Below are positions 86 to 9,034 of a stretch of 64,000 bases of DNA, piece by piece (position 1 is the first letter of the stretch; each line of letters starts with the position of its first letter). The stretch spans positions 1 through 64,000 of the forward strand of contig JAPKZA010000498.1 of assembly GCA_026394015.1 (NCBI GenBank). The letters run 5' to 3'. Source of the DNA: Acidobacteriota bacterium (GTDB lineage: Bacteria; Acidobacteriota; Terriglobia; Bryobacterales; Bryobacteraceae). A program made the position numbers and the translations under genes. The notes below the pieces were generated by a model. It was not told the DNA's origin. It did no database searches and saw only the letters and a list, made by a program, of their open reading frames with translations.

Positions 86-2150
86 ATGCCCATCTCTCGC
101 ATCCCCATTTACGCGCTACTAACGGGACTTTCTCTATGTGCCTCCGCCCTGGCTCAGAATCCCGACAAACCCGAAAAAAAACTAGACGTTAAACCCTCCG
201 CGCCGCTCCCCGACGTCAAGGTGAATTGGCCGGTAACGACCACGCAGACTACGACGCAGACGTTTACGACTGCGAACGGCGCGTCGGGGCTTTTTAGTCG
301 TCCCGTCAATATGAAGCTGCTGGTGCTTACCGGCGACGGCAACGAGCCGAGTTTCGCCGCGCTCAAGTTTTACCTGGACTATCTGAATCTGCCATATGAC
401 GCGGTCGTATTAAAGGGCATCGCCTTGCCTGCGCTGGAAGACGCGACCGGCCAGCGCGGAAACTACCAAGGCATTATTCTGGCTACTGGCAGCCTGGGCT
501 ATTCCAACAACGGAGCCTGGGTGAGTGCGCTGAGCACGGCGGATTGGACACGGATGGATGACTACATGCGGAACTACGGGGTGCGGGTGGTGAGCTACTA
601 CACCTATCCGGAAGCCCGCTATGGGATGGTCCCCGTGTCAGCCATGGCGACGAGCGCGGCGGCACCGGCGAGCATGGCCTTCGCAAGCGCCTCGAGCACC
701 ATCTTCCCCTACCTCGTCCGAACGAACCCGCTGAGAGTAACGGATGCCTATCTCTACTTGGCATCCGCGGCACCGGCGGTCGGCGAAACGACCACCCCCA
801 TTCTCACGATCGGCACCGGAATCGCGGGTGTTACTCACACTAAGGCTGACGGGCGGGAATTCATGGCATTGACCTTTGACAACAACCCCTACCTGATCCA
901 TTCCCTGGCTCTGAATTATGGCATCTTCAATTGGGTGACGAAAGGGATCTTTGTGGGGGAGCGGCGCATCTATCTCACTCCCCAGAATGACGATTTCTTC
1001 CTGCCGAACGACCTGTTCGTGGCGTCCATCGCCGCCTGCAGACCGTCCGCCTTCACGGTGGATCCCACGTATGACCCGTCGGCTCAGTGTCCGACCGACC
1101 GCATGGACGGCGGCGACCTCTCCGCGCTGGACGATTGGCAGAAAAGCTGGCGGTCCAGGGCCCAAACGAAAGACTTCCGCGTGACGTACGCCTTTAACGG
1201 GTTCGGCGCAACCACGGCCGGCGGCTCGCCCAATAAAGACAGTCTGTTGACGGAACTACGCACGAGGCGGGATTCCTTCTTCTGGGTCAACCACACGTGG
1301 GACCATGAGAATCTGGACTGCAAAATCCAGTCCCGAACAGCGGCATCTGCACACCGGCAACCTTTGCCGAGTCGCAAAGCCAACTGAATCAGAACATCGC
1401 GATGGCGCAAACCCTGAGCCTTCCGTTCGACCGACCGAGTATGGTTACCCCGAACATATCCGGTTTGGCGAACACGAATTTCCTGTTGGCGGCGCAGGGA
1501 GTCGGCGTTAAGTATATGGTCTCGGACACTTCGCGGCCTGAGTGGATGCCGGCGAAACCGAACATCGGCGTGCGCAGCCCCTACGTTCCTTCTATTCTCT
1601 ATATCCCCCGTCGGTCGACCAATATCTACTACAACACCAAGTCGGGCCGCTGCCGGACGAGTACAACTACTTCTACGGCCCCAACGGCATCTTCCGGCTG
1701 CCGGGTGGCGCACCTTTCTTCTCGACCACCCAGACTTACGCGCAGATTGTGGATCGGGAGAGCACGACCTATCTAGGTTACATGTTGCGGTATGAATCCT
1801 ACCCGCTCATGTTCCACCAATCGAACTTCATTCGTTTTGACGGTAAGAGCTCGCTCTTCACGGACGTGATGGCGGCGACGTTTGACAAGTTCATGAAGAT
1901 CTCCAACTTACCCGTAACCAGCTTGTCGCAGACGGCACTGGGCAAGATGATGGAGGACCGCATGGCCTTCAACGCCGCCGGGGTGCAGGCGGTTTATAAC
2001 CCGGGTTCAGGAATCACCTTCACCGCTCAGGGAGCGGCGGCGATCCCCGTAACCGGTGTCTGCGCGGCCGGGTGCCAAACCTACGGCGGCCAGAGCATCT
2101 CGTTCATTCCAATCGCGGCGGGCGGAACGGTCTCGGTCCCGTTGCTCTAA
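86..2150 (+). pseudogene. Agd3/PelA-like secreted polysaccharide deacetylase, split over three frames by two apparent 1-nt deletions
   Basis: Signal peptide (MPISRIPIYALLTGLSLCASALA). N-terminal 'LVLTGDGNEPSFAALKFYLDYLNLPYD...NYQGIILATG', then 'TPQNDDFFLPND', 'FFWVNHTWDHENLDC' in frame 2, 'NPVPNSGICTPATFAESQSQLNQNIAMAQTLSLPFDRPSMVTPNISGL...RRSTNIYYNT' in frame 1, 'GPLPDEYNYFYGPNGIFRLPGG...' in frame 0. Consistent with the CE18/NodB-like Agd3 family layout. Confidence 0.65.
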
Positions 2151-2174
2151 TTCCGCCCACTGGGAGAAGAAGAC

Positions 2175-3482
2175 ATGAGTCGATTCCTCATCGCCATTCT
2201 GGGAGCCGCCTGCATCTTGCCGGCGGCTCCCCCCCCCCGCCATCTAAGCCTGGCGGAAGCGCTCCAAGCCGCGGTGGCCCGGGCGAAGGCCGAAAACTCC
2301 CGCAGCGAAGTCGCGGCCAGCCAATTGCGGGTTTTGGAGGCGGCGAACAAATGGAAGGTGGAGTTGCGGCCTTCGCTTGGCATCTTCTCGTTCTCGAACC
2401 CGGCGTTGTTGGCGGCGACCCTCGGCTCCAGCCTGTTAATGGGGAAGCGGAACGCGCCTTCGCATTTGACGATGGAAGGCGCCCGGTTCGACGTGCTGGC
2501 GGCGGATTTGGCAGCGGAACGACTCCGGTCCCGAACCGAGATTGAGACGGCGCGGGCCTTTTTTGACCTCCTCGAAAAGCAGCAGATCGCGCAGCAACTG
2601 GAACAGGCGCTCGCCGTCAAACGGGCGAAGGAACGGGAATTCGAACGTTTGTTGCGGGTTTCCCGGGTGACCGCGGTGGACCAGGTGGCGTTTCAGCAGG
2701 AAGTATTGGAAATGGAACAACAAAAAATCGACGTCGAGATGGAGCGACGCCTGGCCAGTGTCCAGTTAGCGTCGTTGACCGGCCGGCTGGACGAAGCCGA
2801 CAATCTCGAAGTCGAGGATGTGAAGATTTCGGGCGCGTCTTTGCATGCCAAACTGCCGCCGGTGGAGAAGATGTTCGAATCCGCACTGCTTTACCGACGC
2901 GAATCGAAACTGCTGCGGGAACGAATCGACGGGCTCCGCGAGAAAGCGGGTCTGCAAAAGCTGGTTTCGGTGGACTCGGTCTCGGCTGGCTACTCCTATC
3001 TGGCCAACGGGGTTAGCGGTCTCCTCAATACGACCCGACCGAACCTGATTGGCGGCCATAGCGGACAAAGCGGCATCAATCTAACGATTCCTTTGCGGCA
3101 GACAGGCGAAAAAGCGGCGGAACGGGATTTACTGATCGCCCGCATGCACGCGCTGGAACTGGAAGCGCGCATCATGGAAAACGAACTCCGCTCGGAGCTA
3201 CTGTCGATGCGGACGGTGGTGCAGGCGAGCATGGACCGGCTCCAACTTGCCAGCCGCCGCGTCGAGCTCAGCCGAAAGAAGAAAGAGATGGTGAAGGTGC
3301 GCGCTGACAATGGATTGGGCGGATTTGGGCTCACCGCTCACGCTGAGGAAGCGGACCTGCAGGCGGAAGCGGCGCTCGTGAAAGCAAGTTGTGCGCGCAA
3401 GAATACTCTGTTCACGTTGATGGTAGTTTGCGGCTTGCAAGATGAACGAGAAGAGCTGCAACAGCAAGTTACCGGCAACTGA
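2175..3482 (+). CDS. TolC-like outer membrane efflux/export protein
   Basis: Signal peptide, long coiled-coil helices, 'HLSLAEALQAAVARAKAEN' and repeated OEP-like architecture; SD-like gggagaag upstream of ATG 2175; lies in the EPS operon. Confidence 0.75.
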   Translation: MSRFLIAILGAACILPAAPPPRHLSLAEALQAAVARAKAENSRSEVAASQLRVLEAANKWKVELRPSLGIFSFSNPALLAATLGSSLLMGKRNAPSHLTMEGARFDVLAADLAAERLRSRTEIETARAFFDLLEKQQIAQQLEQALAVKRAKEREFERLLRVSRVTAVDQVAFQQEVLEMEQQKIDVEMERRLASVQLASLTGRLDEADNLEVEDVKISGASLHAKLPPVEKMFESALLYRRESKLLRERIDGLREKAGLQKLVSVDSVSAGYSYLANGVSGLLNTTRPNLIGGHSGQSGINLTIPLRQTGEKAAERDLLIARMHALELEARIMENELRSELLSMRTVVQASMDRLQLASRRVELSRKKKEMVKVRADNGLGGFGLTAHAEEADLQAEAALVKASCARKNTLFTLMVVCGLQDEREELQQQVTGN

Positions 3483-3529
3483 CGAGACAAGGCGACATCG
3501 ATACGCAGCGTGCAAATTAAGGAAATCCG

Positions 3530-4639
3530 ATGAAAGTTAAAATCAAGAGTGGCCTATTCACCGACGCGATCGCTTGGAAGTTCGTCAAGGGTTGGCTCCT
3601 GTTGGTGATGGTGTGGCTGACGCTCCCCCCCTTTCCAGAAAAGGTGTCCGGGCGGTTTGAAGGTGGGTCCAAGACGGTGTTGGCGGGACATATCCGTGCG
3701 GTACAACTGGTGCCGGTGACGGTGGAGTTTGTTGGACGCGCGGTTTCCGTCCGCGTTAAGCCGGGACAGGTAGTGGCGGAAGGGGAGCTACTGGCGGAGT
3801 TGGAGTCCCCGGAGGTGGTGGAACGTCTGGACCGGGCTCGGCGTCGGCTGGCCTTCGCCACTTCGCGACTGCGGAGCAAACCGCAAACGGCCGCGCTGCT
3901 TTGGCGCGAACAGCAGCAAAGCACGGTCCAACAGCACCAGGAGGCCCAGTCCCGGCTGGCCGCATATTCCCTGGATGTGGTGGAGGCAAACTATGCCCGT
4001 TCGCAAAGGGAGGTTACTACGATCAGCAACCTCGTCCAGCAGCATTTGGCGACTGTACAGGACCTGGAGGCCGCTCGCCGCCAACTCGACGTGGACCTTG
4101 CGACACTGGAGAATGCAAAGCGGACGAAGACCCGACTGGAACATGAAACGCGCGCCGCTGCCTCCCAGCTCAAGATGGTCATGATTCAGAAAGCAAACGG
4201 CGAACCCGCAGTGGATCCCGCGGCGGAACTGGAGTATGAGGACGCAACGACGGCCGTCGAAACGGCTGAACGACAGTTTAAGGCACTGCGGGTCGTGGCT
4301 CCGGTAAGCGGAACTGTGCTGACCGTTTCGGTGCAACCGGGCGAGGCCGCGGGTGGATGGGCTCCGTTGTTTCAAATGGCCGATCTCCAGAAATTGCAGA
4401 TCGAGGTACCGGTTACGGCGCGGCTCGCTGGCATGATTCGTGGTGGCAGTCCCGTCAATGTTGTAATTCCAGGAGATCCGCCGCAGGCGGTTCCCGCCAG
4501 CGTGAAAGACATTCAACTCGTCCCGGATCAACTCGAACGTTCGCACGTGGTTCGAATTGTCGTGCCGAATCCGCAGCCAGGGAGTATCTTGATAGGAATG
4601 GAGTGTACTGTTGAATTTGCCCATGGGGGCATGCTTTGA
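3530..4639 (+). CDS. HlyD/RND-type periplasmic adaptor (membrane fusion) protein
   Basis: Single N-terminal TM; biotinyl-lipoyl-like halves 'VSVRVKPGQVVAEGELLAELESPEV' and 'VVAPVSGTVLTVSVQPGEAAGGWAPLFQMADLQKLQIEVPV' flanking a coiled coil. Confidence 0.85.
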   Translation: MKVKIKSGLFTDAIAWKFVKGWLLLVMVWLTLPPFPEKVSGRFEGGSKTVLAGHIRAVQLVPVTVEFVGRAVSVRVKPGQVVAEGELLAELESPEVVERLDRARRRLAFATSRLRSKPQTAALLWREQQQSTVQQHQEAQSRLAAYSLDVVEANYARSQREVTTISNLVQQHLATVQDLEAARRQLDVDLATLENAKRTKTRLEHETRAAASQLKMVMIQKANGEPAVDPAAELEYEDATTAVETAERQFKALRVVAPVSGTVLTVSVQPGEAAGGWAPLFQMADLQKLQIEVPVTARLAGMIRGGSPVNVVIPGDPPQAVPASVKDIQLVPDQLERSHVVRIVVPNPQPGSILIGMECTVEFAHGGML

Positions 4640-6102
4640 CCAGATCGGTCCTCTTGACCACCGACGGCACCTATCCGCATTACAGCGGCGGGGTTAGCAC
4701 GTGGTGTGATCAACTGGTGCGGCATCTGGCCAACGTGGATTTTCATCTCTTATCCATCGTCCACTCGCCGTATCAGCCCCAGGTCTACAAGCTGCCCCAA
4801 AATGTTCGCAGCCTGGAGGCGATCTCCCTTTGGGGCAACGAGGATCCTGGCTTTCCGTCCGGCTCCTTCGCGGACTCGTACGAACGGAAGCTGCGAACGA
4901 CAAAGGAGAAGATCGCCGAGGGTTTTGTGCCATCGTTTGCAGTAGTCGTGCAAAGCGTCTTTGCTGGCTCTGCCGCCGATGCGATGGCGTTTGGGCAAGC
5001 GCTAGCGCGGTTGCAGCGTTACTTTGAAAGCTATGACTACGCGGAAACGATGACTTCATCGCTGGCGTGGGCATGCTTCAAGAAATGTAGCGCCCAACCG
5101 GCCGCTCTGTCGATGGAAGATGCGACTACCTGCATGCGTTGGCTCGTGCGGTATTTAACCATCACGGCTCGCCCGAACATTGTTACCGATGTGGTGCACG
5201 CCTCGATGGCCGGGTTGGCGGCCGTGCCGGGCGTGCTGTCAAAGATCCAGTACGGCACCTATTTTTTGATTACTGAACACGGGATTCACTTACGCGAGCT
5301 GTATATGTCCTTGTCGAGGATGAACGGGAGTGAGCCGTGTCGTCGCTTCCTGCTGGGCTGGAATCAGGCGATCGTCGGCATGAACTATTACTATGCCGAC
5401 CACGTGACTTGCCTGGGTGAATTCAATCAGAAATGGCAGGTGGCTTTTGGCGTCGATCCAGCGAAAGTGGAATTCGTCCCCAATGGCGTCGACCCGCTTC
5501 GCTTCTTCCCGGAGCCGAGGGCCCCGTCGGCCCGACCAACCGTGTTGACGCTGGCCCGTATCTTCCCCTTGAAAGGGATTGACACGTTGCTGCGCGCCGC
5601 GGCGATCGTACGCGATCAAGTCCCCCTCGTGAAGTTCCGTATTCTGGGCGATGTTGCCGATCCGGCGTATTTTGCGGAATGCCAACGGATTATTGCGGAG
5701 AACCAATTGGAGATGGCAGTCGAGTTTGGGGTGACCAAAGAGGCAGGATTGGAGCTGCGCAGGGCCGATGTGTTTTGCCTGCCGAGCGTGTCCGAAGGAT
5801 TGCCGTATACGATTCTGGAGGCGATGTTTTCCGGCTGCCCGGTGGTGGCCACCGATGTGGGGAACGTCAGCGATGCCCTGAGCGGGACCGGCTTGTTAGT
5901 CAGACCGAACAACCCGCCAGAGCTGGCTCGGGCTCTTTTGACCGTTTTGGATGGACCGGGGGCATCTGGCTTGCGGGACAAGTTATCCGCGGCGGCGTTG
6001 GAACGGGCGCGACAACACTATACATTGGAGAAGGCCATTCGCCCGTTCCAGTTTCAGTACGAGGGGAGGCAACATTGTCACCAAACACTCCAAAGTGCTT
6101 GA
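4636..6102 (+). CDS. pelF: PelF-like GT4 glycosyltransferase (DUF3492 type N-terminus)
   Basis: 'TTDGTYPHYSGGVSTWCDQLV' N-terminus typical of PelF; GT4 C-terminus 'PSVSEGLPYTILEAMFSGCPVVATDVGNVSDAL'; TTG start overlaps the upstream stop. Confidence 0.8.
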   Translation: MTRSVLLTTDGTYPHYSGGVSTWCDQLVRHLANVDFHLLSIVHSPYQPQVYKLPQNVRSLEAISLWGNEDPGFPSGSFADSYERKLRTTKEKIAEGFVPSFAVVVQSVFAGSAADAMAFGQALARLQRYFESYDYAETMTSSLAWACFKKCSAQPAALSMEDATTCMRWLVRYLTITARPNIVTDVVHASMAGLAAVPGVLSKIQYGTYFLITEHGIHLRELYMSLSRMNGSEPCRRFLLGWNQAIVGMNYYYADHVTCLGEFNQKWQVAFGVDPAKVEFVPNGVDPLRFFPEPRAPSARPTVLTLARIFPLKGIDTLLRAAAIVRDQVPLVKFRILGDVADPAYFAECQRIIAENQLEMAVEFGVTKEAGLELRRADVFCLPSVSEGLPYTILEAMFSGCPVVATDVGNVSDALSGTGLLVRPNNPPELARALLTVLDGPGASGLRDKLSAAALERARQHYTLEKAIRPFQFQYEGRQHCHQTLQSA

Positions 6103-7583
6103 CCGCTCCTCCTCCCGGCGGCAATCTTCGTCCGGCGCTGGACGCCTTCGACCTTGCCGTCCGACTGGAAATGGAAGGAGTGACCGACGAGGTCGCCCGC
6201 GTTGAATTCGGGTCCTCCTCGACGTTCGCACTCGCTCGGGAGCGTCTTCACACGGTCATTGGCGGTGACTACCCTGTAACCAAGCCCCCGGAGAAGCCTC
6301 GTTTGGCGCAATTCTTCAACGGAGTCGCTTTCGCGCTACCCATCCTTATCTGCACGATCACTTCGTTGTTGTACCGTATTTCCCTGTGGGGGGGCGATCT
6401 TTCCGCCGACCTTGCCACGGCCGTCGCGATTGGTACAATCTCGAGTTTTCTTGTCACTGGCGGGATCATCCAGGCCTCCGCCCGCCGGACGCTCTTCCAG
6501 ATTCAATGTGAACAGTGGGACGAGGCCTGCACTACCTGTTATCACTGGACATTTCTGGGTGTAAAGAGCTTGGTGGTTACCCTCGGGCTCGGGTGGGCCC
6601 TCAATCAGTATTTTCGCTGGGTGCCGACACCGATTGACGGGGTAGCGCTAGCCTTTCACTTTTTCCTCGGCCTACTCTGGCTGGCGGGCGGGATTCTTTA
6701 CGTCCTGGAGATGGGCTGGGCGGTAGGAGCGGCGGTGCTGGCGGGTATCGGAGTTGTTGCCTCACTGCACTGGGGCGCGGGTGTTTCGCTGCTGGGAGCC
6801 CAACTGGCCGGAGTGGCCGCCACTGCCGCGATCGCCTTCGCCGTCTCCGGCATTACGATGCGGCGGAAGCGGAAACAGAAGGGCCGTGGCGAACACTTTT
6901 CTCTTCGCGTGGCGCACAAGATCGGACCCTATTTTCTGTACGGCTCCTGCTACTACCTATTCCTGTTTGCCGACCGCATCCTCGCCTGGACCGCCCAAAC
7001 CACCACTTCCTCGCTGCCGCTGCAATTCCGCGGCGATTACGAGACGGCTCTGGATATCGCCATGATCGCTTTTATTGTGCAGGCCGGTTGGGTCCACCTG
7101 TCCGTCCTCGCTTTCTACCGGCGAATGAACACCGCTCAAGAAGGCTTCAATGTCCGGGAGTCGGTCGCCTTCAATGCCGAACTGCGGCGCTTCTATTGGC
7201 GACGGGCCGTATGGTTCCTGCCGGTCGCCAGTGCCTTGGGGCTGGCGACTTATTCGATTGCCGTTCACTACGGGTTGCTCCCCACCGAGGGTATGCGGAA
7301 GGTGGCCGGGGTGGCGGTGGCGTCCTATCCGCTGCTGGTTTTCGGGCTTTGGAATACCAGTCTTTTCTTTGCGCTCTCCCGTCCGGAAGGGGCATTGCGC
7401 TCCATCCTCGCCAGTCTGGTGGTCAACGTGATTGTTGGCTATGCCTGCTCGCGGGTCGGCCAGTACGATAGCGCTGTATACGGGTTCGCGGCGGGCAGCG
7501 CCGTCTTCGCTATTCTAACGACGGTCACCTATCTCCGGCTGAGTCGATCTTTGGACTATCACCACTTCGCCTCGGCGGCTTAA
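6075..7583 (+). CDS. pelG: PelG-like polysaccharide flippase (MOP superfamily-like) with N-terminal soluble extension
   Basis: Polytopic hydrophobic protein directly after pelF; TTG start 6075 preceded by SD GGGGAGG (6063-6069); overlaps the end of pelF by 28 nt; 'LFQIQCEQWDEACTTCYHWTFLGVKSLV' and 'GPYFLYGSCYYLFLFADRILAWTA' PelG-like segments. Confidence 0.6.
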   Translation: MSPNTPKCLTAPPPGGNLRPALDAFDLAVRLEMEGVTDEVARVEFGSSSTFALARERLHTVIGGDYPVTKPPEKPRLAQFFNGVAFALPILICTITSLLYRISLWGGDLSADLATAVAIGTISSFLVTGGIIQASARRTLFQIQCEQWDEACTTCYHWTFLGVKSLVVTLGLGWALNQYFRWVPTPIDGVALAFHFFLGLLWLAGGILYVLEMGWAVGAAVLAGIGVVASLHWGAGVSLLGAQLAGVAATAAIAFAVSGITMRRKRKQKGRGEHFSLRVAHKIGPYFLYGSCYYLFLFADRILAWTAQTTTSSLPLQFRGDYETALDIAMIAFIVQAGWVHLSVLAFYRRMNTAQEGFNVRESVAFNAELRRFYWRRAVWFLPVASALGLATYSIAVHYGLLPTEGMRKVAGVAVASYPLLVFGLWNTSLFFALSRPEGALRSILASLVVNVIVGYACSRVGQYDSAVYGFAAGSAVFAILTTVTYLRLSRSLDYHHFASAA

Positions 7584-7585
7584 CC

Positions 7586-9034
7586 ATGCAAATCTGGACT
7601 GACTTTCTTCGCGTCGCCGTGTCGATGTTTGGGCTCTTCTTGCTCCTTCCGGCGTTGGCGGAAAGGATGTCCCGCACGGGCGCAACGGCTCGATTTCCGG
7701 ATCTTCTCGCTGTTGGGTTTGTCCGCACAGCACTCTTTCTGGTCTTTCTCGGCTTGCTGCTCGGGCCTTGGAAACTGTACTTACCGGGCGTCGTACTCAG
7801 CGCCTACGCGGTCTGGATCTTGAGCACTGTGTTGCTCGCTTCCCGGAATGGGTGGCTCTACGACGGCGACGCTTGGACGACTGGCTATGCCCGACTATTG
7901 CGCAGCATCGAGCAACGCGGTCAACTGCGTCACGTGTGGAATACTACTGTCGAGTTATCTCAGGAGTACCTCGTGCTGACGATGTTGATCCTGGCGATGT
8001 TTCTGCATTTCGCGTGGTACCCGATTTCCAATTTCCGCTTCTCGTCGGCCGCGGGGTATGCGCAAACTCTGGCGTTGGGCACGCTGCTCAACGGTTCGGC
8101 TTCGACGCGGGACGCTTCGGTCGCGTTATTAGCACCCATTGCCCTCGCAAGTGGTTCGGATGCCGCCACCGTTGTCCGCCTCAGCGTTCCCCTGCTGTAC
8201 CTGCTTATCCTCAGCGCGATCGTCTGTTGTTGCTCTGCATATTCCCGTTCCCCTTGGGCGGCGGCGTTGGCGGTGATCCCGTTCTGGCTCTATTCGTCCG
8301 GACCAGGGAAAGAAGCGGCCACGACGCCTGATGGCACCCTTTGGGCGACCCTGGTGTTGGTTGCCGCCGTCGGGGCCGGACGCCGATCGGTTGGTACCGC
8401 TTGCTCCGGATTGCTGCTGACCTGGTTCTTGACGCCATCTTTTCCGGAGTTGCTCTTCGTCGCTCTGGCGAGCCTCGCGATTGGACTGGTGGGCGATGCG
8501 CTCATGCGCTTGGGGCCCCCCGTCGTGCGGAGAATCTGCGTCGCCGCGCTCGTCGTGTTTGGCCTTTTTTCGCTGGCTGCGCCGTTGCGATCGGTCCCGA
8601 GCCAAGGTCCGTTCCAGTATGAATCCGCCGCCCGGGCGGCGGATCGGATTGCGCGGGAGTTCCCGAGGAACCGTTGGATCGTGGTCTCTCCCATGCATGA
8701 GGCGGCGTTCGTCACCGGTCGTGGCTGGCATAAAGAGTTGCCGGAATTTCTTGAGGAGTTTCCCACCAGCGCGGCGACCGATAAGGCTTTTCGACTTCCC
8801 TTCGAAGTTGCCGACACTTTCTTTTTTGTTGAGAAACGGCCGTTGCCCCAAGGCGCAAGATTGGCGGTTCCCGGAAATTCGTCAAACAGCTTCTACTACG
8901 CAACCGGGCCAGGGAGAACCTCCATTGCCTTTCGCGCCGCCGAGTTCATCGCCGCTTATTCGTCGTCCCATCACGGCGTGACCGTCTTTCATGAGGACGA
9001 CGATCTGGTTGTCTACCAGATCCACCCGGAATGA
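7586..9034 (+). CDS. Polytopic membrane protein with C-terminal soluble domain, function unknown, in the EPS operon
   Basis: 482 aa, about 8-10 hydrophobic segments, starts 2 nt after the pelG-like stop; no recognised motif. Confidence 0.7.
   Translation: MQIWTDFLRVAVSMFGLFLLLPALAERMSRTGATARFPDLLAVGFVRTALFLVFLGLLLGPWKLYLPGVVLSAYAVWILSTVLLASRNGWLYDGDAWTTGYARLLRSIEQRGQLRHVWNTTVELSQEYLVLTMLILAMFLHFAWYPISNFRFSSAAGYAQTLALGTLLNGSASTRDASVALLAPIALASGSDAATVVRLSVPLLYLLILSAIVCCCSAYSRSPWAAALAVIPFWLYSSGPGKEAATTPDGTLWATLVLVAAVGAGRRSVGTACSGLLLTWFLTPSFPELLFVALASLAIGLVGDALMRLGPPVVRRICVAALVVFGLFSLAAPLRSVPSQGPFQYESAARAADRIAREFPRNRWIVVSPMHEAAFVTGRGWHKELPEFLEEFPTSAATDKAFRLPFEVADTFFFVEKRPLPQGARLAVPGNSSNSFYYATGPGRTSIAFRAAEFIAAYSSSHHGVTVFHEDDDLVVYQIHPE

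Follow-up and report, generated by a model that had tools for sequence, protein, structure and literature searches.

How would a Pel-like exopolysaccharide leave the cell when the genes next to those for its PelF-type glycosyltransferase and PelG-like flippase encode a TolC-type channel and an HlyD-family adaptor instead of PelB and PelC? The question is raised by six genes at the start of a 64,000-nt stretch of DNA (hereafter, the window) from a soil Acidobacteriota bacterium, whose genome is represented by a draft assembly of 574 contigs (7.9 Mb, 97% completeness). The interpretation favored here, with a probability of about 0.6, is that these genes form an operon for a Pel/GAG-like, probably partly de-N-acetylated, GalNAc-rich exopolysaccharide in which an HlyD(-TolC) export route replaces PelB/PelC.

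Gene content and organization of the locus

The six genes, which encode in this order CBM87-CE18, OEP/TolC, HlyD, PelF, PelG' and MP (Table 1), are tightly packed, with successive intergenic distances of 24, 47, -4, about -28 or -4 (according to which PelG' start is used) and 2 nt. The first-pass annotation had described six co-oriented genes with tiny gaps or overlaps, and this arrangement is present as named. The family names that it gave agree with Pfam and NCBIfam as well, except that the deacetylase gene consists of three frames, the breaks between which had been overlooked. The PelF and CBM87 profiles clearly exceed their curated cut-offs, as do those of the OEP and HlyD domains, and the CE18 and PelG scores are marginal; the glycosyltransferase and the flippase thus do match the PelF and PelG profiles, the latter by a narrow margin. 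All six genes evolve under purifying selection and five of them have intact frames; dN/dS is 0.09-0.15 for the five genes other than CE18 (0.09 for the TolC-type gene).

Table 1. Locations of the features discussed (curated Pfam/NCBIfam cut-offs, in bits: CBM87, 27.6; OEP, 22; HlyD_D23, 30; DUF3492, 23.3; PelF, 100; PelG, 29; TIGR01730, 94.9)
Feature	Location	Strand	Profile matches (bits) and other properties
CBM87-CE18 (Agd3-type) polysaccharide de-N-acetylase	window 86..2150	+	PF25116 71.9, PF25115 26-32.6; signal peptide at start; frame broken twice
CE18 gene, first piece	window 86-1387	+	CBM87 and first CE18 motifs
CE18 gene, middle piece	window, frame of 1309-1776	+	
CE18 gene, end piece	window 1542-2150	+	
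TolC-type outer-membrane efflux protein (OEP), 435 aa	window 2175..3482	+	PF02321 49, in two stretches; N-terminal signal
HlyD-family periplasmic adaptor, 369 aa	window 3530..4639	+	PF16576 56.5, PF13437 40.0; one TM helix at 14-32
PelF-type GT4 glycosyltransferase, 488 aa	window 4636..6102	+	NF038011 156.7, PF11997 (DUF3492) 147.9
PelG', PelG-like MOP-superfamily flippase with extra N-terminal three-helix domain	window 6075..7583 (TTG start 6075 or 6099)	+	PF16933 29.2
MP, polytopic membrane protein of an unnamed family	window 7586..9034	+	no Pfam/NCBIfam match
MP member	L084:14862-16970		
MP member	L111:14394-16568		
MP member	L101:13932-15911		
DUF2194 protein, 1334 aa	L101:15908-19912		weak TPR match
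GH114	C77 (L011) 290-1729		C-terminal TIG-like part
Putative hydrolase-like frame	C77 1729-2370		no Pfam match
HlyD fused to response-regulator receiver domain	L046:8163-9983		
HlyD fused to AAA ATPase domain	L020:12035-14437		

In PelF, the residues E387 and E395 of the EX7E motif and K313 are invariant in 15 homologues. The PelG profile score given in Table 1 is obtained from the likely TTG start at 6075, and falls to 28.2 bits from the mechanical start. A structural model of PelG' (pLDDT 86, pTM 0.82) retrieves MATE, WzxE and MurJ structures in a Foldseek search with E-values from 3e-6 to 9e-4, so that PelG' is, by its predicted fold, a MOP flippase. The additional three-helix domain occupies residues 24-62 and is common to PelG' across the recovered phyla.

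Linkage of HlyD and TolC to PelF

A search of 85,488 species genomes with a PelF alignment as the query yielded 80 loci which, together with loci identified earlier and after removal of duplicates, gave 90 PelF entries; a contig scan with the window PelF sequence alone as the query recovered no loci. Of the 18 Acidobacteriota/Calothrix loci, 14 have a gene for an HlyD-family protein no more than 9 kb from PelF, whereas among the 72 other loci there is a single such case (L113), with HlyD about 8 kb away on the opposite strand, which was treated as chance. At least two of the four Acidobacteriota/Calothrix loci that lack a nearby HlyD are on short contigs. In most of the 14 loci HlyD immediately precedes PelF; it lies about 1 kb upstream in L024 and L041, and in L020 an MP gene and a hydrolase-like gene separate the two. 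Given that the genome analyzed here contains only 26 HlyD_D23 matches in 7.9 Mb, the chance of HlyD-PelF adjacency should be well under one per cent, and because the linkage is kept across several Acidobacteriota families, HlyD is very unlikely to be a chance neighbor of PelF, an explanation rejected on the 14/18 versus 1/72 distribution.

The HlyD-PelF-PelG-like core recurs across much of the phylum. Within it, only Bryobacterales loci (those of the window, L008, L042 and L043) have a linked TolC/OEP gene, and L009 and L045 have HlyD without TolC. TolC was accordingly rejected as a universal component of PelF loci, and the RND-HlyD-OEP set that L039 has about 4 kb from PelF, being part of an RND pump, was left out of the evidence for it. 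HlyD is the general feature of these loci in Acidobacteriota, and where TolC is unlinked it may be supplied from elsewhere. The earlier proposal that TolC and HlyD jointly replace PelB/PelC therefore stands as regards the non-canonical character of the locus, the conserved linkage of HlyD and the lack of pelB/pelC upstream in relatives (see below), and is narrowed to the Bryobacterales for linked TolC; passage of the polymer through TolC-HlyD is presumed.

Fusions of HlyD were also encountered: in Calothrix anomala (L046) the partner is a response-regulator receiver domain, and in a genome of the Acidobacteriota (L020) it is an AAA ATPase domain. These fusions hint at cytoplasmic control or energy input.

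The strongest competing explanation, which nevertheless seems unlikely, is that HlyD and TolC are an efflux pair that happens to sit beside a polysaccharide operon, with the pump encoded elsewhere and the polymer leaving by an unrecognized route. The window HlyD is indeed closest to RND/DevB adaptor models (86.2 bits for TIGR01730, below the cut-off), the genome has 26 HlyD_D23 matches, L039 carries a separate RND-HlyD-OEP set in the vicinity of PelF, and TolC is shared widely between export systems. However, in each of three separate PelF groups (Bryobacterales; Blastocatellia-type with Calothrix; and gp7) HlyD is found on the PelF strand, either abutting PelF or preceding it; it has no accompanying pump gene, and in the window it overlaps the PelF start by 4 nt. 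Both the HlyD and the OEP domains of a tripartite exporter are present in the window, whereas an energized inner-membrane pump is absent from the operon, and no ABC, RND or MFS transporter was found among the neighbors read in the window, L008 and L009. These observations favor the export route proposed above. Points against the overall reading are the energized pump with which known HlyD-TolC systems pair and which is not seen here, the loci with HlyD but no linked TolC, the four loci lacking a nearby HlyD, the broken CE18 frame, and the marginal PelG and CE18 scores.

The deacetylase gene and its broken frame

Compared with the intact 694-aa CE18 gene of L008, a relative of the same genus (880-2964; CBM87 and CE18 profile scores of 64.0 and 61.0), the window sequence is short of 1 nt near 1321 and of 19 nt near 1647. 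The catalytic motifs, DD (nt 986), HxxxH (1292), an arginine segment (approximately 1573-1606) and FHQSN (1812), correspond to those described for Agd3 (PMC7229062), and are spread over three frames (Table 1); a single open frame with all four motifs is present in L008 and not in the window. One of the window pieces accounts for the PF25115 score of 32.6 bits.

These gaps, one of which is as long as 19 nt, could signify a decaying locus, with CE18 a pseudogene and the strain producing an acetylated polymer or none; in L045, and possibly in L042, CE18 is likewise split or short. This scenario is improbable, considering that all other genes are intact and constrained and that the CE18 pieces retain all the catalytic motifs and low dN/dS (0.12, 0.17 and 0.11), as would be the case if the draft assembly were in error here or the frame had been broken very recently. 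Because all three pieces are under purifying selection, the breaks would be either recent or sequencing/assembly errors, and judging from the sequence, a recent break or a draft error is the best fit.

The region upstream of the operon

The window starts at base 1 of its contig (C228), so that the upstream DNA is cut by the contig end. The first-pass annotation had suggested that further components could lie beyond the window, and such a component was identified: the only GH114 gene (endo-galactosaminidase) of this genome is on a 2.4-kb contig, C77. In L008, a GH114 gene is located upstream of CE18 in divergent orientation; positions 141-996 of C77 align to 856-2 of L008, and the window from base 77 aligns to L008 from 871 onward. 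From these alignments, C77 and C228 probably abut, which would place GH114 next to the window start. C77 also carries a second putative hydrolase-like frame that overlaps the GH114 stop codon by 4 nt. The order GH114/CE18-TolC-HlyD-PelF-PelG'-MP, with GH114 divergent, is the same in L008 and L043, and L042, with GH114 adjacent, agrees with it as far as its contig extends. The L043 locus is flanked by a sigma-factor-like gene and a polynucleotide-phosphorylase-like gene (both named by reading).

In the complete relatives L008 and L043, no pelB/pelC was found upstream, where GH114 stands instead, and L042 has none as far as its contig reaches. The PelD profile (PF16963) has no match in the genome analyzed here or in the PelF genomes of the phylum, although two other genomes of the phylum do match it (one above the cut-off; neither encodes PelF). 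The PelB barrel profile (PF24604) matches neither this genome nor any of the 396 genomes of the phylum, in a search without a positive control, and neither PelC nor PelE is evident among the neighbors, which were read without profiles. That a canonical Pel system with PelB, PelC, PelD and PelE is encoded elsewhere and the window operon is accessory, as the cut contig and the fragmented, 97% complete assembly might allow, is therefore highly improbable and was rejected on the searches for PelD and, without a positive control, PelB, all the more so with PelG' carrying an N-terminal domain and partnered by MP in place of PelD/PelE.

The membrane protein accompanying PelF and PelG'

The last gene of the operon had been described as encoding an unknown polytopic membrane protein. 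It has indeed no Pfam or NCBIfam name, but it is a conserved subunit, and the family to which it belongs spans many phyla and is encoded beside PelF/PelG'. Among the 396 genomes of the phylum, MP was detected in 7, all of which belong to the 8 genomes with PelF (naive hypergeometric probability of 3e-14, which is too small given that the genomes are related); in the eighth, G102, a divergent MP is encoded next to PelG'. MP is present in most of the PelF/PelG' loci recovered, which come from over ten phyla; with profiles extended by their own hits, it was found beside PelF/PelG' in Bacillota, Bacteroidota, Chloroflexota, Actinomycetota, Campylobacterota, Nitrospirota, Cyanobacteriota, KSB1 and others. 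Bacillota loci often contain two tandem copies of MP (e.g. L055, L077 and L096).

Many members of the family share a first-loop motif, D-x-YVxLxW...DGxYPxGxH, a pattern resembling that of GT-C glycosyltransferases. The first-loop aspartate is present in many Bacillota MP and absent in the window copy, which is shorter. The best Foldseek matches of the MP model (pLDDT 77) are GT-C proteins (DPY19 and AftD) with E-values of 0.14-0.36, none below 0.001; PF10131, which we take to be a family of the GT-C clan, matches 1 of 18 MP members (4.5e-4); and comparison of the MP profile with PDB sequences yielded chance matches only. MP is probably GT-C-like, which is a lead rather than an assignment.

The partners of this core differ between phyla. 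In Campylobacterota (L111), a clear OEP (72 bits) directly precedes PelF and an OmpA-type protein follows PelG'. Bacteroidota PelF loci end in a large DUF2194 protein (L101; Table 1), which may combine a deacetylase with an outer-membrane part. Tentatively, and with odds somewhat short of even, PelF, PelG' and MP could constitute a Pel-like synthase/flippase class of their own that extends across phyla. MP would serve in it as a catalytic or scaffolding GT-C-like subunit, and the envelope modules would be exchanged according to cell type: no module in monoderms, DUF2194-TPR in Bacteroidota, OEP plus OmpA-type protein in Campylobacterota, and HlyD(+TolC) in Acidobacteriota, the last amounting to a flippase-driven tripartite polysaccharide exporter.

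A proposed route of synthesis and export

The combination of PelF, CE18 and GH114 fits a Pel/GAG-like, partly deacetylated GalN/GalNAc polymer; those GH114 enzymes that have been characterized cleave GalN polymers (PMC12054363). Against this reading, the locus contains no gene that would supply UDP-GalNAc. In the proposed route, PelF would polymerize the chain in the cytoplasm, and PelG' and MP would carry it across the inner membrane; the HlyD adaptor would span the periplasm to the TolC channel, the latter in place of PelB/PelC. CE18 would deacetylate the chain outside the cytoplasm, and GH114, the product of the divergent gene, would trim it.

The locus thus points to a second way of Pel/GAG-type export in diderms, via the HlyD-TolC parts otherwise familiar from drug and protein exporters, and to MP as a conserved membrane subunit without a family name that accompanies PelF/PelG' in many phyla. 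Both points are directly testable, and would allow biofilm polysaccharide loci that currently go unrecognized to be annotated in abundant soil bacteria.

Comparison with known systems

In the open-access literature, no description was found of PelF, PelG and HlyD together, of an HlyD/TolC variant or of MP. Bacterial exopolysaccharide operons that contain Agd3 (CE18/CBM87) have been reported as a class, and the Gram-negative examples are Proteobacteria with homologues of Pel outer-membrane components (Bamford et al. 2020, PMC7229062). The present locus shares with this class the CE18-CBM87 deacetylase, a cytoplasmic glycosyltransferase, a multi-spanning membrane protein and GH114: PelF, PelG' and MP are encoded in the window, and GH114 is on C77 and adjacent to the locus in L008, L043 and L042. 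It differs in belonging to Acidobacteriota, in having HlyD and TolC instead of the Pel outer-membrane homologues, and in the addition of MP. Canonical Pel operons, pelABCDEFG in Pseudomonas and pelDEADAFG in Bacillus cereus (PMC7112168), likewise combine PelF, a PelG-family MOP protein, a deacetylase and a galactosaminidase. In contrast to these, the window has no PelB or PelD profile match, its PelG' is extended by an N-terminal domain, the locus further includes MP, HlyD and TolC, and CE18 and GH114 are separate genes whereas a single PelA is present in the canonical system.

Plasmid-borne GAG-like loci with PelF, PelG', CE18 and polygalactosaminidase were also noticed in Deinococcus (L025, L026 and L027), Streptomyces (L028) and Thermus (L029); most of them include epimerase and nucleotidyltransferase genes, and they lack MP and HlyD. 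The fungal galactosaminogalactan cluster consists of uge3, sph3, gt4c, ega3 and agd3. It resembles the locus described here in the GT4, CE18 and GH114 genes (and, in some relatives, a Spherulin-4-like protein), whereas the window has a bacterial PelF/PelG' synthase and flippase and a putative envelope-spanning exporter, and no epimerase.

Finally, known HlyD-TolC systems (type I secretion, RND/MFS efflux and DevBCA-HgdD) pair with an energized ABC, RND or MFS pump. The window encodes the same one-TM HlyD adaptor and OEP/TolC channel, but in place of such a pump, the inner-membrane partners appear to be a MOP flippase and MP.
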